A DNA stretch of 32,522 nt from a virus. The position numbers and the translations under genes are program-made. The stretch is taken from positions 1 through 32,522 of IMG/VR virus record IMGVR_UViG_3300027151_000026, one strand, 5' to 3'. The notes under the pieces are model-generated. The model was given only the letters and a program-made list of their open reading frames with translations. It was not told where the DNA came from and searched no databases. Shown here one piece after another: positions 16,457 to 30,357 of the stretch. Position 1 is the stretch's first letter. Each line of letters starts with the position of its first letter.

Positions 16457-16480
16457 CTCGTGCGTGTGCGCGCGTGCGCG

Positions 16481-16592
16481 CACACGTGCACACGTGCACA
16501 CGCGCACACGCGCACACGTGCACACGCGCACACGCGCACACGTGCACACGTGCACACGCGCACACGTGCACACGTGCACACGTGCACACGTG
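16481..16592. repeat. Tandem octamer array, 14 copies of CACACG(T/C)G
   Basis: Fourteen consecutive, gap-free copies of CACACGYG fill 16481-16592. The variable base reads T T C C T C C T T C T T T T. Related CA/CG repeats extend on both sides (about 16459-16640). The tract is strictly alternating purine-pyrimidine, a sequence able to adopt left-handed Z-DNA, and every T copy creates the palindrome CACGTG. It is not a CRISPR array, because there are no spacers. Confidence 0.9.
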
Positions 16593-16657
16593 TGCGCGTG
16601 CACACACACACGCACACACACACGCACACGCGCGCACGAGGCGCCAGGCGACGCCAC

Positions 16658-16910
16658 AGGGGCTCGAGCCCCTCGAGCTCGAGGGCGACGCCGTGGGGTG
16701 CGCGTGCTGGCGCTCTGCGGGGCCCCAGTAGCCTCGTAGAGGGGCGATCTCGCGTTGTGTGGGGAATCGGTGCCCCCGAACGGCGTTCGGGGCTCTGCGG
16801 GGCGTTTAGGGGCTCGAGCACCACGGGGCCCTCGAGCTCGAGCCCTACGGGGCCCTCGAGCTCGCGTGCGGCCCTCGAGGGCTCGAGGGCAGGGTTGCCC
16901 CGCTCGAGCG
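16658..16910. repeat. CTCGAG/GAGCTC palindrome cluster, left flank
   Basis: The hexamer CTCGAG recurs many times, including a perfect 16-bp palindrome AGGGGCTCGAGCCCCT (16658-16673) and the compound palindrome CTCGAGCTCGAG (16672-16683). CTCGAGCTCGAGGGCG at 16672-16687 recurs in the right flank in inverted (19417-19432) and direct (19482-19497) orientation. Confidence 0.85.
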
Positions 16911-16956: not shown

Positions 16957-16990
16957 GCAAAACGCCCCCGCGCGTGAGCACGGGGGCGTT
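16957..16990 (-). terminator. Rho-independent terminator of the minus-strand operon
   Basis: Read on the minus strand, AACGCCCCCG (16990-16981) and CGGGGGCGTT (16970-16961) form a perfect 10-bp G+C-rich stem with a 10-base loop, followed by TTGCG so that the 3' side reads GTTTTGCG. It lies 20 bases beyond the amidotransferase stop, the classic position. It marks the cassette as a self-contained transcription unit. Confidence 0.75.
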
Positions 16991-17009: not shown

Positions 17010-17939
17010 TTAGTCGGTGAGCAATGGTACGAGCTCGAACACCCACGAGGCGACCGATGCGGCGTCGGTGCGTACGTGAAACGCGGCGTCCTCTGCCGTC
17101 ACGGTGTAGTGCTCGCAGAGTAGCTCTGCTGCGGCGTTGGGATAGTCGCGGACCCACTCGAGCGCCCCCGCTTCGCCGTTGCGCTCCGCGAGCTCGACGA
17201 GCTCGACACGCACACATTCGCGCATGAGCTCGTCGGCGTCTTCGCCGTCGCTCGTGAGTAGCGCGGGCGTGTCGTCGTGCAACGGCGTCACCGTCACACA
17301 CGCGGGGCCATGCACCGTCGCGGGGCTCTCCCACTCAACGTCGTGCAGGTAGTTCGAGTAGCTGCGCGCGGTACGCGCCGCGCGTAGATGCGCGGGCGGA
17401 TTCCATGCGTAGGTGTTCGAGTACCAGCACCCATGATACTCAACGCCAGCCGCGCGGTTCACGACGGCAACGCGCCCATCGGCGTGTGCGAACACAAACT
17501 TGTTGCTCGTGCCGATCATCCCCTCGAGCACGCGTTGCACGTCGCTCGAGAACAACGCATCGGCATTGTCGCGCGCCATCGGCGCGAGCACGTGCTGCGC
17601 CATATGCCACGTATCGGACATCCCGCGCGTCGGTGTGCCGATCTCGAGCACGCCGTTGTGGACGAACGCCACATCTGGCGTAAGTGTGAACGGGTGGGCG
17701 TTCTCGAGATTCACGCTACCGTGCGTTGCCATGCGCCAATGCAGCACGCACGCACGCCCCGCGGCGTGCGCGTAGTAGAGCGCGAGCATCTCGTTGACGT
17801 CGCCCACGGTTCGCCACGTGTGTAGCACACCACCGACGGCGCGCATAATGCCGAACCCGTCATCATTGCGTGAGAAAATTTCCACGAGGCGCGCACGTGG
17901 GAGTGTGTGTCCTGCTGGTTGAACGATGATAAGGCACAT
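17010..17939 (-). CDS. Class II glutamine amidotransferase (Ntn hydrolase)
   Basis: I chose the ATG at 17939, not the longer frame from 17957, because it puts the catalytic cysteine at position 2 (Met-Cys-Leu-Ile), as this family needs after Met removal; GGAG lies eight bases upstream. The 309-residue protein has NDDGFG (25-30), HWRMATHG (67-74), NAHPF (80-84) and HNG (94-96), the glutamine-binding and oxyanion motifs. The C-terminal hundred-odd residues are acidic and unassigned. It should hydrolyse glutamine to glutamate and ammonia. No synthase domain is fused, so its partner is probably the amidoligase two bases upstream, forming an ammonia-donor and ligase pair in the cytoplasm. Confidence 0.88.
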   Translation of the reverse strand: MCLIIVQPAGHTLPRARLVEIFSRNDDGFGIMRAVGGVLHTWRTVGDVNEMLALYYAHAAGRACVLHWRMATHGSVNLENAHPFTLTPDVAFVHNGVLEIGTPTRGMSDTWHMAQHVLAPMARDNADALFSSDVQRVLEGMIGTSNKFVFAHADGRVAVVNRAAGVEYHGCWYSNTYAWNPPAHLRAARTARSYSNYLHDVEWESPATVHGPACVTVTPLHDDTPALLTSDGEDADELMRECVRVELVELAERNGEAGALEWVRDYPNAAAELLCEHYTVTAEDAAFHVRTDAASVASWVFELVPLLTD

Positions 17940-17941
17940 GG

Positions 17942-19168
17942 TTAGATCTCCGCCCAACGGGTTGCAGTGTCGGTGACACGCGGCGCGCGGATTGCGCGCT
18001 TCGTGATAGCTTCAATGGCGCTACGCAACGGCTCGTAGCGCGGCGCGGCGCGCTCTGTCACGCGGCGCGCAAAGCATCGGCGCAGATGCTTTGTGTCGGC
18101 GGCGTTCGCGACGTCGTAAACGTGCTCGAGGAAAGCACGCGTACTTAGATCGCCATTCGACGCCGTGCGCGCGAACTCGAGCACGGCGTTGGAAAACTCA
18201 ACGCACGCGAGCACCGTTTCCGCGCGTAACGTGCCACGGAATAGGCGAAACTCAACGGTGCGTGAGTTCGTGAGATTGAGCATCTCGTACCGGTCGTACG
18301 ACTGCGCCGCATTGCGTAGCGCTTTCTTCGCGATGCGGCAGTACGAGTTGCCATAGCGCCGCGCGATGGCGCGTACAAGCGTTTCGTTCTCCGGTGCGTT
18401 GAGAAACACAACGGCGCGCGCGAGTTGCAGTGTGGTGAGGCCACGGCGCGACACGTGGACGTGCAGTCCGCACGTGCGCGTGTCGTGCGAACGCAACGCG
18501 CGCGCCGCCGTTTGCGACAACACACGCGACCACAGTTCCTCATGCGCATCGAGGCCCATCGGTTGCGTGATGAGCTCGAATCCCCACGTGAGGCTGCCGT
18601 CGTGCTCTGCCCATACGCGGCGCGTGTCGCCGTTCGCCACGTCGAGCAACGCACGCGCCGTGTCGTGGCGCTGTTCATCGCTCGCGTCGGCGTCGGCCAT
18701 CTCAACTTCGAGTTCAACGCCGAAATGCCGATCACCGTGTGCACGCGTCCACGCCGACGGCAGCGGTACCGTTTGCGCGCGGCGTTCGCCGTTGTGGTAT
18801 CCACCAATCACGCGCGTTTGCGCTTCACGTTCGGCGCGCTCTTCGCGCTCGAGTTCGCATTCTCTGCACACGCCGTCTGTTCCCCATGCGCCGTCGGTGT
18901 ACAGCCTATCACAATCCGCACACGAGAACGTGTGGGCGTCGGCGCACGATTCGCACAAGTGCACGATGTTTCCCCATTCATCGAACGCGCGCGTTGAGTC
19001 ACTACGCAACGTGTACGCGTCACAATACGAGCACTCGAACGCGCAAAACGCGTGCACAACGCGATCGCCAACTAGCACGGTGTCGTCATCGTCGCGCACA
19101 ACGGCGCAGCACTCTGCGCAGCACGTCGGCGTTTCGTGCGCGGTTTCGGTTTCGTTGGGCGTCGGCAT
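17942..19168 (-). CDS. GS-like amidoligase (Amidoligase_2 type) with N-terminal zinc ribbons
   Basis: The 408-residue protein begins in a TGATG overlap with the small membrane gene. Residues 16-104 hold clustered CxxC-type pairs (C16/17, C20/21, C42, C46/C49, C72/C75, C83/C86, C101/C104), suggesting two or more zinc ribbons. The ligase domain has FGVELEVEM (149-157; glutamates that bind metal-ATP), AEHDGSL (187-193), GFELITQPM (196-204), CGLHVHVSRRG (233-243) and RTVEFRLFRGTL (303-314), the signature order of glutamine-synthetase-like COOH-NH2 ligases. It should activate a carboxylate with ATP and join it to an amine or ammonia. The substrate is unknown; the zinc ribbons hint at a protein or nucleic-acid target. 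Confidence 0.88.
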   Translation of the reverse strand: MPTPNETETAHETPTCCAECCAVVRDDDDTVLVGDRVVHAFCAFECSYCDAYTLRSDSTRAFDEWGNIVHLCESCADAHTFSCADCDRLYTDGAWGTDGVCRECELEREERAEREAQTRVIGGYHNGERRAQTVPLPSAWTRAHGDRHFGVELEVEMADADASDEQRHDTARALLDVANGDTRRVWAEHDGSLTWGFELITQPMGLDAHEELWSRVLSQTAARALRSHDTRTCGLHVHVSRRGLTTLQLARAVVFLNAPENETLVRAIARRYGNSYCRIAKKALRNAAQSYDRYEMLNLTNSRTVEFRLFRGTLRAETVLACVEFSNAVLEFARTASNGDLSTRAFLEHVYDVANAADTKHLRRCFARRVTERAAPRYEPLRSAIEAITKRAIRAPRVTDTATRWAEI

Positions 19169-19320
19169 CAGTCATCCCCCCGCAAGTCGTGCAGCGCCAC
19201 GAGGAGCGCGCCGATTACGAGCGCCACGGCACCCGCACCGACAAGCGTGAGCGAACGCGTGCCCAGTCCCGCAATGATCGACATGAGCCCTGCGCCGGTT
19301 ACCAAAATCGCCATCGTCAT
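19168..19320 (-). CDS. Two-helix small membrane protein, first gene of the minus-strand operon
   Basis: This 50-residue frame starts at 19320 with AGGGA five bases upstream, 59 bases after the predicted -10 box, and ends in a TGATG overlap with the amidoligase. Two hydrophobic segments (about residues 4-20 and 24-44) flank a short polar turn, and the C-terminus is charged (HDLRGDD). It may anchor the ligase pair to the membrane or act as a holin-like or immunity peptide. A longer in-frame version reaching beyond 19900 translates repeat DNA and is not credible. Confidence 0.7.
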   Translation of the reverse strand: MTMAILVTGAGLMSIIAGLGTRSLTLVGAGAVALVIGALLVALHDLRGDD

Positions 19321-19378: not shown

Positions 19379-19407
19379 AACGTACGGCCCGTGCTCTCGA
19401 GAGTCAA
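19379..19407 (-). promoter_or_regulatory. Sigma70-like promoter of the amidoligase operon
   Basis: On the minus strand TTGACT (19407-19402) lies exactly 17 bases from TACGTT (19384-19379); matches to consensus are 5/6 and 3/6. Transcription would start near 19372, about 52 bases before the first ATG. The -35 box is adjacent to the CTCGAG cluster, so binding there could control it. This gives the cassette expression independent of the phage operons. Confidence 0.6.
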
Positions 19408-19497
19408 CAATAGCGCCGCCCTCGAGCTCGAGCCCCTCGAGCTCTCGAGGGCGTGAGCTCGAGCCCCTCGAGGGAACCCCGCTCGAGCTCGAGGGCG
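19397..19497. repeat. CTCGAG palindrome cluster and inverted repeat, right flank
   Basis: CGCCCTCGAGCTCGAG (19417-19432) and its exact reverse complement (19482-19497) form a 16-bp inverted repeat with a 49-base loop that itself contains more CTCGAG and GAGCTC sites. The same 16-mer occurs once in the left flank (16672-16687). The cluster abuts the minus-strand promoter. Further copies occur near 19581 and 19629. Confidence 0.85.
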
Positions 19498-19770
19498 GTT
19501 CCAAAAGCCGGAATACCGGGGTGTTTCCTTAGGGTGTTTTCTCGTGCGCGTGCGCGCGCGAGGCGCTGCGCGGCGCGGGGCTCGAGGGGATCGAGGGGAT
19601 CGGCACGTGGCGCGCGGAATGACACGAGCTCGAGCGGGGCGTTGGGAAGGGGAAAAATCGCAACCAAGCGCCCCGCGCACGCGCGCGAGTCTATAGCCTA
19701 CGCGCGCGACACACGCGCACACGCGAGATCGCTCAGGGCGTTCTCTCGCGCGCGCCACGTGCACGTGGGG

Positions 19771-20974: not shown

Positions 20975-21046
20975 TGCGGGGTGGAGCAGTGGAAGCTCGG
21001 CGGACTCATACTCCGCAGGTCGAAGGTTCGATTCCTTCCCCCGCTA
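20975..21046 (+). tRNA. tRNA-Met (CAT anticodon), initiator-like
   Basis: A full cloverleaf can be folded. The acceptor stem is 20975-20981 with 21039-21045, D stem GAGC/GCTC (20984-20987, 20995-20998), anticodon stem GCGGA/TCCGC with loop CTCATAC and anticodon CAT at 21007-21009, five-base variable region AGGTC, T stem GAAGG/CCTTC with loop TTCGATT, and discriminator A at 21046. The 3' CCA is not encoded. Position 1:72 is a T-T mismatch and D-stem pair 11:24 is A-T, both initiator tRNA hallmarks. The anticodon stem has only two of the three consecutive G-C pairs expected. Six of seven acceptor pairs form normally. Confidence 0.88.
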
Positions 21047-29046: not shown

Positions 29047-30357
29047 ATGCCGAATCCTACGGTTATTTCGGATGCGGAACTGACTGGCCTACTGAAGAAC
29101 GTCTACAGCCAGTTCCGTGAGAAGGTGCAGAACCTCGTGACCCCGCTGCTCGCGCAGCTTGAGAAGGGTCGTGCGGGTGGCCCGCGCAACATGCGTTGGG
29201 GCGGTAACAACGTGTTCTTTGACGTGGTGGTTGGCCGTCCGGCTGGTGCCACGTTCTCGTCCGCTGGCTACTTCCCGCCCGACACGACGGCGCAGGAAGT
29301 GCAGGGTAACGTGGGTGTGGTCCGTGCGTACACGACCCGTCAGATCGACGGCCTCGCGTTCGTCGGCACCCAGAGCAAGGACGCGGCCTTTACGACCATC
29401 GCCAAGAAGACGATGGAAGAAATCAAGGACGCTTCCTCGCTTCTCATGCAGCAAGCCCTGCACAACAAGCAGGATGGCATTGTAGCCCTCGTGAGCAGCG
29501 TGTCCAGCACAACGTCCATCGTCGTGTCGTCGCCCTACGGCGTGGCCTCGGCGGGTCAGGGGTCGCTGCTCCTCTCGGTCGGTGACTACATCGCCGTCCT
29601 CGACACCTCGTCCTCGGACGCGGTGCTGGGTCGTGCCGCCATCACGGCGATCAGCAACAGCGGCGACAACGCCACGCTGACGCTGGGCACCGCGATCAGC
29701 AGCATGGCCGCGACGGACAAGATCGTAAAGGCGACCGCGAACGACACCTCGTTCAACAGCGCCATGAACGGTCTGATCAACATCACCAACCGTGGCGGGT
29801 CGTATGCCTCGCTGCACAATGTGTCGGCCAGCACCTACAGCATTTGGGATGCGACCCGACTGGTGGCGGGGACGGATACGCCGGACGCGAACACGCCGAC
29901 CGAATCGGACATCTGGGATCTCATTCAGAAGATCTCGGGTCGCTCCGGCAAGGACGCGATGACCCGTCCGAAGGACTTCCTGCTCATGACCACGCCTGGC
30001 CTCGCCAAGAAGCTCATGGAGAGCATGGTCGGTCAGCGTCGGTTCACGGCGGGCGAGTTCAGCACGACGATCAAGGGCGGCTACAAGGCCATTGAAGTCT
30101 GCGGCATCCCGTGCGTGACCGACTACTACGTCCCCGCTGGCACCATCTATCTCCTCCACATCCCGTCGCTGGCGTGGGTGGACGCGAAGGATTGGGGCTT
30201 CGTCGAGTTCGAGGGTGCGGGTCCGTGGCGCTGGATTCAGGGCCGCGATGCGTTCGAGACGACCTACGGCTGGTACGGCAACCTTGCCTGTCTTGCCCGT
30301 AACGCTCACGGCAGCATCACGGGCTACACCGACACGGCGCGTTACAGCCATGTCTAA
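29047..30357 (+). CDS. Major capsid protein
   Basis: The 436-residue protein follows the scaffold gene with an AAGGAA site. It begins with a helical arm (SDAELTGLLKNVYSQFREKV) and then mixed alpha/beta sequence with a Gly/Ser/Thr-rich middle (about 150-250), a likely surface insertion. Aromatic C-terminal strands (GPWRWIQGRDAFETTYGWYG) fit HK97-fold capsids of scaffold-using phages. High use of favoured codons and a strong hairpin just after the stop fit high expression. No prohead protease is seen; the acidic scaffold argues for scaffold-driven assembly. Confidence 0.88.
   Translation: MPNPTVISDAELTGLLKNVYSQFREKVQNLVTPLLAQLEKGRAGGPRNMRWGGNNVFFDVVVGRPAGATFSSAGYFPPDTTAQEVQGNVGVVRAYTTRQIDGLAFVGTQSKDAAFTTIAKKTMEEIKDASSLLMQQALHNKQDGIVALVSSVSSTTSIVVSSPYGVASAGQGSLLLSVGDYIAVLDTSSSDAVLGRAAITAISNSGDNATLTLGTAISSMAATDKIVKATANDTSFNSAMNGLINITNRGGSYASLHNVSASTYSIWDATRLVAGTDTPDANTPTESDIWDLIQKISGRSGKDAMTRPKDFLLMTTPGLAKKLMESMVGQRRFTAGEFSTTIKGGYKAIEVCGIPCVTDYYVPAGTIYLLHIPSLAWVDAKDWGFVEFEGAGPWRWIQGRDAFETTYGWYGNLACLARNAHGSITGYTDTARYSHV

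Follow-up and report, generated by a model that had tools for sequence, protein, structure and literature searches.

An amidoligase and class II glutamine amidotransferase gene pair of phages and gut-Firmicutes mobile elements, a candidate carboxylate-amidating enzyme

Organization of the cassette

The DNA analysed here is the virus record IMGVR_UViG_3300027151_000026 of IMG/VR, taken from position 1 to 32,522 and referred to below as the window. In this 32.5 kb phage record, positions 17010-19320 of the minus strand hold three coupled open reading frames (ORFs), which encode a two-helix peptide, an Amidoligase_2 ligase and a class II (N-terminal nucleophile, Ntn) glutamine amidotransferase (GATase). 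The stop codon of the peptide and the ATG of the ligase share the bases TGATG, and the ligase is separated from the GATase by two bases; coordinates and ORFs agree in this respect with a previous examination of the letters alone (the sequence-only reading), which had described the same three-gene set. The codon-position GC of all three ORFs is similar to that of the phage genes of the window. The features are compiled in Table 1. As described next, the ligase and the GATase form a well-conserved and common pair, in which we see a candidate two-subunit amidating enzyme.

Table 1. Positions of the cassette genes and of the putative signals at their borders
Feature	Position	Strand	Basis
Class II (Ntn) glutamine amidotransferase, 309 aa	17010..17939	minus	Pfam, residue conservation, AlphaFold2 (AF2) model
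Amidoligase_2 (glutamine-synthetase-like) ligase, 408 aa	17942..19168	minus	Pfam, PHROG, conservation, AF2 model
Two-helix hydrophobic peptide, 50 aa counted from first ATG, MTMAILVTGAGLMSIIAGLG..	19168..19320	minus	Homologue only in L003
GC-rich hairpin then TTTT past the GATase stop, probable intrinsic terminator	16958..16990	minus	
Candidate promoter TTGACT-17 nt-TACGTT, position conserved with L003, weak	19379..19407	minus	

Families, active sites and folds of the two enzymes

The profile matches of both enzymes lie above the Pfam cut-offs and agree with the families named in the sequence-only reading. The ligase matches Amidoligase_2 (PF12224; 1.9e-9, 38.2 bits, cut-off 22) and the GATase matches GATase_4 (9.7e-6, 25.1 bits, cut-off 23), with GATase_6 remaining under its own cut-off. 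The PHROG matches of the cassette enzymes are PHROG 16683 (1.4e-28) and PHROG 2443, “amidoligase enzyme” (3.3e-15).

The motifs FGVELEVEM, EHDGSL and HVH in the ligase and NDDGFG and HNG in the GATase, which had been cited from the letters, are present, as is MCLIIV with the cited Cys2 of the GATase; the catalytic positions proved to be near-invariant in about 80 non-redundant homologues. In the ligase, the near-invariant positions are E152, E154, D190, S192, E198, G234, H236, R271, R293, N298, E306 and R308; they include the ExE, His and ExR catalytic positions of the glutamine synthetase (GS)-like type (E152/E154, H236 and E306/R308), which we presume to match those of GS residue by residue. 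In the GATase they are C2, H67, R69, T72, G74, N95, G96 and D109, with aligned counts of 79/79 for C2, 81/81 for R69, 79/80 for N95, 80/80 for G96 and 80/80 for D109.

The AF2 models, computed from alignments of the retrieved loci, have a mean pLDDT of 90 for the ligase and 87 for the GATase. The GS-like catalytic domain of the ligase model starts at about residue 145, and Foldseek matches the model to glutamine synthetases, YbdK, plant GCL and the pupylation enzymes PafA/Dop. The GATase model consists of a glutaminase domain (residues 1-190), a disordered linker (about 192-231) and a C-terminal helical domain (235-308). Foldseek relates it to the GlmS glutaminase domain, which is the top match both in structure and in the PDB profile search, and to EgtC. 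Two relatives (L045:4960-6618 and L050:5293-7041) encode longer GATases, of 552 and 582 aa, with long repeats rich in Gln, Glu, Pro and Ala near the C-terminus.

The region preceding the catalytic domain of the ligase carries a paired CxxC module, and among 83 homologues its cysteines 46, 49, 72 and 75 are conserved in 69-78. Most homologues in which this region can be delimited have two or more CxxC pairs ahead of the catalytic domain. The module probably binds zinc. A Firmicutes relative gave a weak LIM match, and the zinc-finger matches from the PDB profile search were all weak, led by the McsA activator (E = 0.007).

Pairing of ligase and amidotransferase across viruses

A viral search seeded with the ligase found at least 595 stretches with relatives, of which the best 80 were kept. 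The GATase lies directly downstream on the same strand in all 80 of these loci, a rate that holds for the closer part of the ligase family, since only the best matches entered the count; two named phage records (L011 and L013) have a distant ligase with no GATase found nearby. Among 81 non-redundant pairs, the median gap between the genes is 21 bp, with 67 of them spaced within -20 to 60 bp. This second set includes loci that were found through the GATase, so that its pairing rate is not independent evidence.

The distance matrices of the two proteins correlate with r = 0.82, a value reached by none of 1,000 permutations. In 25 loci with a terminase, the ligase and GATase correlate with each other more closely (r 0.88) than either does with the terminase (0.74 and 0.76). 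That a ligase with a GATase behind it forms a near-obligate unit, and that their trees match, are new findings of this analysis. Such co-inheritance is what two subunits belonging to a single enzyme would show, or two steps that obligately go together.

No partner family other than the GATase occurs in more than about a third of the viral loci once antisense reading frames are excluded. A third conserved phage partner was rejected; the only neighbours that recur are terminase (26/83) and DUF932 (14/83), the latter as a protein whose gene precedes the ligase by about 1 kb, as at L073:6016-7113 and in 13 loci like it. An integrase was detected in 8 of the 34 records tested, and many of the phages bearing the pair are without a detected one; plasmids gave only four distant matches.

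The sequence-only reading had regarded the hydrophobic peptide as part of a self-contained three-gene system, a claim that did not survive the survey of loci. A clear homologue of the peptide was found only in L003, the closest syntenic phage, and therefore the peptide does not belong to any general three-gene system. Small hydrophobic ORFs lie upstream of the ligase in 13 of 83 loci (16%), against a background of 9% at random positions, and on these counts the idea that a membrane peptide generally forms the third component was rejected. The likeliest view of the peptide is that of an addition specific to this lineage, perhaps a tether.

Relatives on Firmicutes elements

The scan of bacterial genomes yielded 260 stretches with relatives, and the following counts refer to the 80 that were kept. 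The GATase accompanies the ligase in 78 of them. The main hosts are Ruminococcus flavefaciens and other Oscillospiraceae, some of whose genomes carry several copies, and a serine recombinase, a tyrosine integrase or a relaxase lies within the retrieved flank of 62 loci. In 50 loci, a DUF960 gene is found about 0.3 kb upstream. The resulting triad of DUF960, CxxC-module amidoligase and GATase can be seen among L119-L198, for example in L131:7671-10077, L175 and L186, on stretches that bear a recombinase or relaxase. Among the listed results of a literature search on DUF960 or amidoligase, no paper named both.

The Firmicutes clade is separate from the clade of the window's phage (tree support 0.91 and 0.97). 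This sister clade on gut-Firmicutes mobile elements, with its added DUF960, is a new part of the analysis. Viruses and gut-bacterial mobile elements carry related pairs by the hundreds, which makes the pair a real and common module. Its mobile-element setting agrees better with a function inside the host cell than with one in virion assembly.

Strand, signals and neighbouring sequences

Every non-cassette ORF with a convincing match to a phage family lies on the plus strand, including those for the small and large terminase subunits, portal, major head protein, internal virion protein, endolysin, helicase and cytosine methylase. The statement that the cassette faces all other genes holds for these genes, the minus-strand ORFs elsewhere having been scanned in part. 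L003 keeps the gene order, the TGATG overlap and the opposite orientation. Across the cassette and the terminase region, its DNA is about 70% identical to that of the window.

A promoter and a terminator of its own had also been attributed to the cassette. The hairpin located 3' of the GATase is strong (-33.6 kcal/mol, z -4.4), which favours the terminator, and the generic terminator scan stayed at chance level. For the promoter, a sigma-70 scan found none; an element of the form TTGAC[TA]-17 nt-[TC]A[CT]GTT lies upstream of it in both the window and L003, which leaves a promoter plausible but weak.

Some other features of the window were noted. Repeats based on CTCGAG fill the spacers on both sides of the cassette (16660-16910 and 19396-19635), this site occurring 30 times in the window against 11.5 expected, and an imperfect inverted repeat of 30 nt (16662-16691 / 19413-19442) flanks the cassette. 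Near it, positions 16460-16650 form an alternating purine-pyrimidine tract (CGTGCACA/CGCGCACA, period 8), across which long ORFs on both strands are probably spurious. A tRNA-Met (20975-21046) is similar to bacterial and phage tRNA-Met genes; a tRNA-Pro predicted at 30163-30235, inside the ORF of the major head protein (29047-30357), is probably a false call.

Proposed mechanism and alternative explanations

From the families, active-site conservation, folds, gene coupling and co-inheritance obtained by computation, we infer that the two enzyme genes probably encode the two subunits of an enzyme that depends on ATP and glutamine to amidate a carboxylate. In such an enzyme, the GATase, with Cys2 as the nucleophile of its Ntn fold, would hydrolyse glutamine and release ammonia, the GS-like ligase would use ATP to activate the carboxylate as an acyl phosphate, and the attack of ammonia on the latter would give the carboxamide. 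The paired-CxxC module of the ligase would probably recruit a large substrate, whether a protein, a peptide or a wall precursor. As cargo of phages and integrative elements, the pair may modify the host, or an element that competes with its carrier, while the carrier resides in the cell or infects it. The two-helix peptide, co-translated in the lineage of the window's phage, may serve there as the enzyme's membrane tether. The proposal of a glutamine-fed, amide-forming pair, already made from the letters, is well supported by the families, the intact active sites, the AF2 folds and the matched distance matrices. Four points weigh against the two-subunit enzyme: the ligase reaches modest TM-scores in Foldseek (about 0.3), the GATase fold and its glutamine pocket fit a GATase and an EgtC-like gamma-glutamyl hydrolase alike, no fusion of ligase and GATase occurs among the loci examined, and a literature search found no assay of a close relative.

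The same folds could also serve a make-and-break arrangement similar to that of EgtA and EgtC in the synthesis of ergothioneine, in which the ligase would link an amine through a gamma-glutamyl or other amide bond, and the Ntn protein would hydrolyse the gamma-glutamyl amide in place of donating ammonia. EgtC structures are among the best matches of the GATase model, and gamma-glutamylcysteine ligases belong to the GS-like ligases, with YbdK and plant GCL among the matches of the ligase model; we nevertheless regard this arrangement as quite unlikely, given that GlmS leads the structural and PDB profile matches of the GATase and that a two-subunit enzyme explains the near-obligate pairing at least as well. 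That the pair are auxiliary metabolic genes, helping the nitrogen or amino-acid metabolism of the host, appears very improbable: glutamine would be consumed, no metabolic neighbours recur, and a probable zinc module is unusual in a small-molecule enzyme.

For the two-subunit amidating enzyme, peptidoglycan, which is the published guess, and proteins, to which the CxxC module and the likeness to PafA/Dop point, are about equally likely substrates, and both roles are compatible with it. The pair may amidate carboxylates of the stem peptide, altering the wall and blocking superinfection; we hold this as a tentative possibility, in line with the ligase-then-GATase core shared with phiEco32 and LUZ24, the hypothesis in print for the larger phiEco32/RIO-1 cassettes, the cargo-like placement and the membrane peptide of the window's phage. 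Against it stand the distance of the phiEco32 and LUZ24 ligases, which are devoid of the CxxC module, and the lack of GGCT in 45 of 47 records and of PF14395 in all 47, the records being fragmentary and such absences no proof. A protein of the host or of a competitor may instead be amidated, on a side chain or at the C-terminus, or ligated to a small amine, with the possible effect of blocking a defence protein. This role is tentative to the same degree: LIM-like CxxC modules in other families often bind proteins, PafA/Dop are among the fold matches of the ligase, and the pair is cargo of phages and integrative elements, in several copies in some genomes, but there is no substrate candidate or PADLOC-DB match, and nucleic acid would be an equally fitting ligand for a zinc finger. 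The boldest version, that the CxxC-module ligase and the GATase constitute a distinct, widespread protein-amidation system of phages and gut-Firmicutes integrative elements (there with DUF960), which inactivates or marks a host or competitor protein and is unrelated to cell-wall synthesis, seems to us speculative and unlikely; if true, mobile elements would possess a machine for post-translational modification.

Relatives are encoded in at least 595 viral and 260 bacterial stretches, yet the literature search gave no substrate for this common module. With the published multi-gene cassette pared down to two core genes, whose predicted active site is intact, the question can be tested directly.

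Comparison with known systems

Two proteins that amidate a glutamate carboxylate in peptidoglycan are already described, MurT and GatD of Staphylococcus aureus (PMC3267633). Their folds are unrelated to those of the window's pair, MurT being Mur-ligase-like. We take GatD to be an amidotransferase of class I type. The glutamine amidotransferase of a C. difficile island was ruled out as a relative, being annotated as a member of the DJ-1/PfpI family, and a known defence system was rejected because PADLOC-DB gave no match for the cassette.

Larger phage cassettes, described as peptidoglycan modification cassettes, share the core of the window's pair. In the sets of the RIO-1-like podovirus cassette (seven genes), phiEco32, LUZ24 and UFV-P2, a class II GATase comes after an Amidoligase_2-like ligase, as in the window; these sets additionally hold a second COOH-NH2 ligase, an ATP-grasp protein and GGCT. 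A CxxC pair is missing from the ligases phiEco32 gp84 and LUZ24 gp18, which branch very far off in the tree, whereas the family of the window has the module. GGCT (PF06094) and COOH-NH2_lig (PF14395) were searched in 47 records of this family, with phiEco32 and LUZ24 as controls. Both controls were positive for both; among the records, GGCT was present in 2 and PF14395 in none. The window itself, a possibly incomplete record, has neither, and its scanned ORFs, which are part of the total, gave no ATP-grasp match. Single absences mean little because the records are often fragments, and the pattern over 47 records is more telling. The window therefore belongs to a ligase and GATase family that has the core of the published cassette without the accessory genes tested. 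PMC10580990 and PMC5498523 both restate the hypothesis that the larger cassette serves superinfection exclusion, with Iyer et al. cited as the source, and in these papers peptidoglycan as the substrate is a hypothesis even for the known cassettes.

The closest homologues in an annotated phage are those of the Manatee Spring podovirus MW202733, an amidoligase and a hypothetical protein with 39% and 44% identity in the same order, which adjoin an integrase and for which no homologous membrane peptide was found. A phage pair of PF12224 ligase and GATase has already been published for the Methylophilales (OM43) phages MEP401/402 and more than 30 related metagenomic viral genomes (PMC10580990), and to call the system undescribed, as the sequence-only reading did, is too strong. 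The MEP401/402 proteins are direct homologues by tblastn and share both families, their order and their adjacency with the window. They differ in their identity (24-29%), in a ligase of about 550 aa with another N-terminal region, and in their location on the plus strand next to replication genes, where no membrane peptide was found. The idea is partly published; new here are the delimitation of the two-gene core with its CxxC-module ligase, the finding that the two genes are near-obligate partners, and the triad with DUF960 that Firmicutes elements carry.
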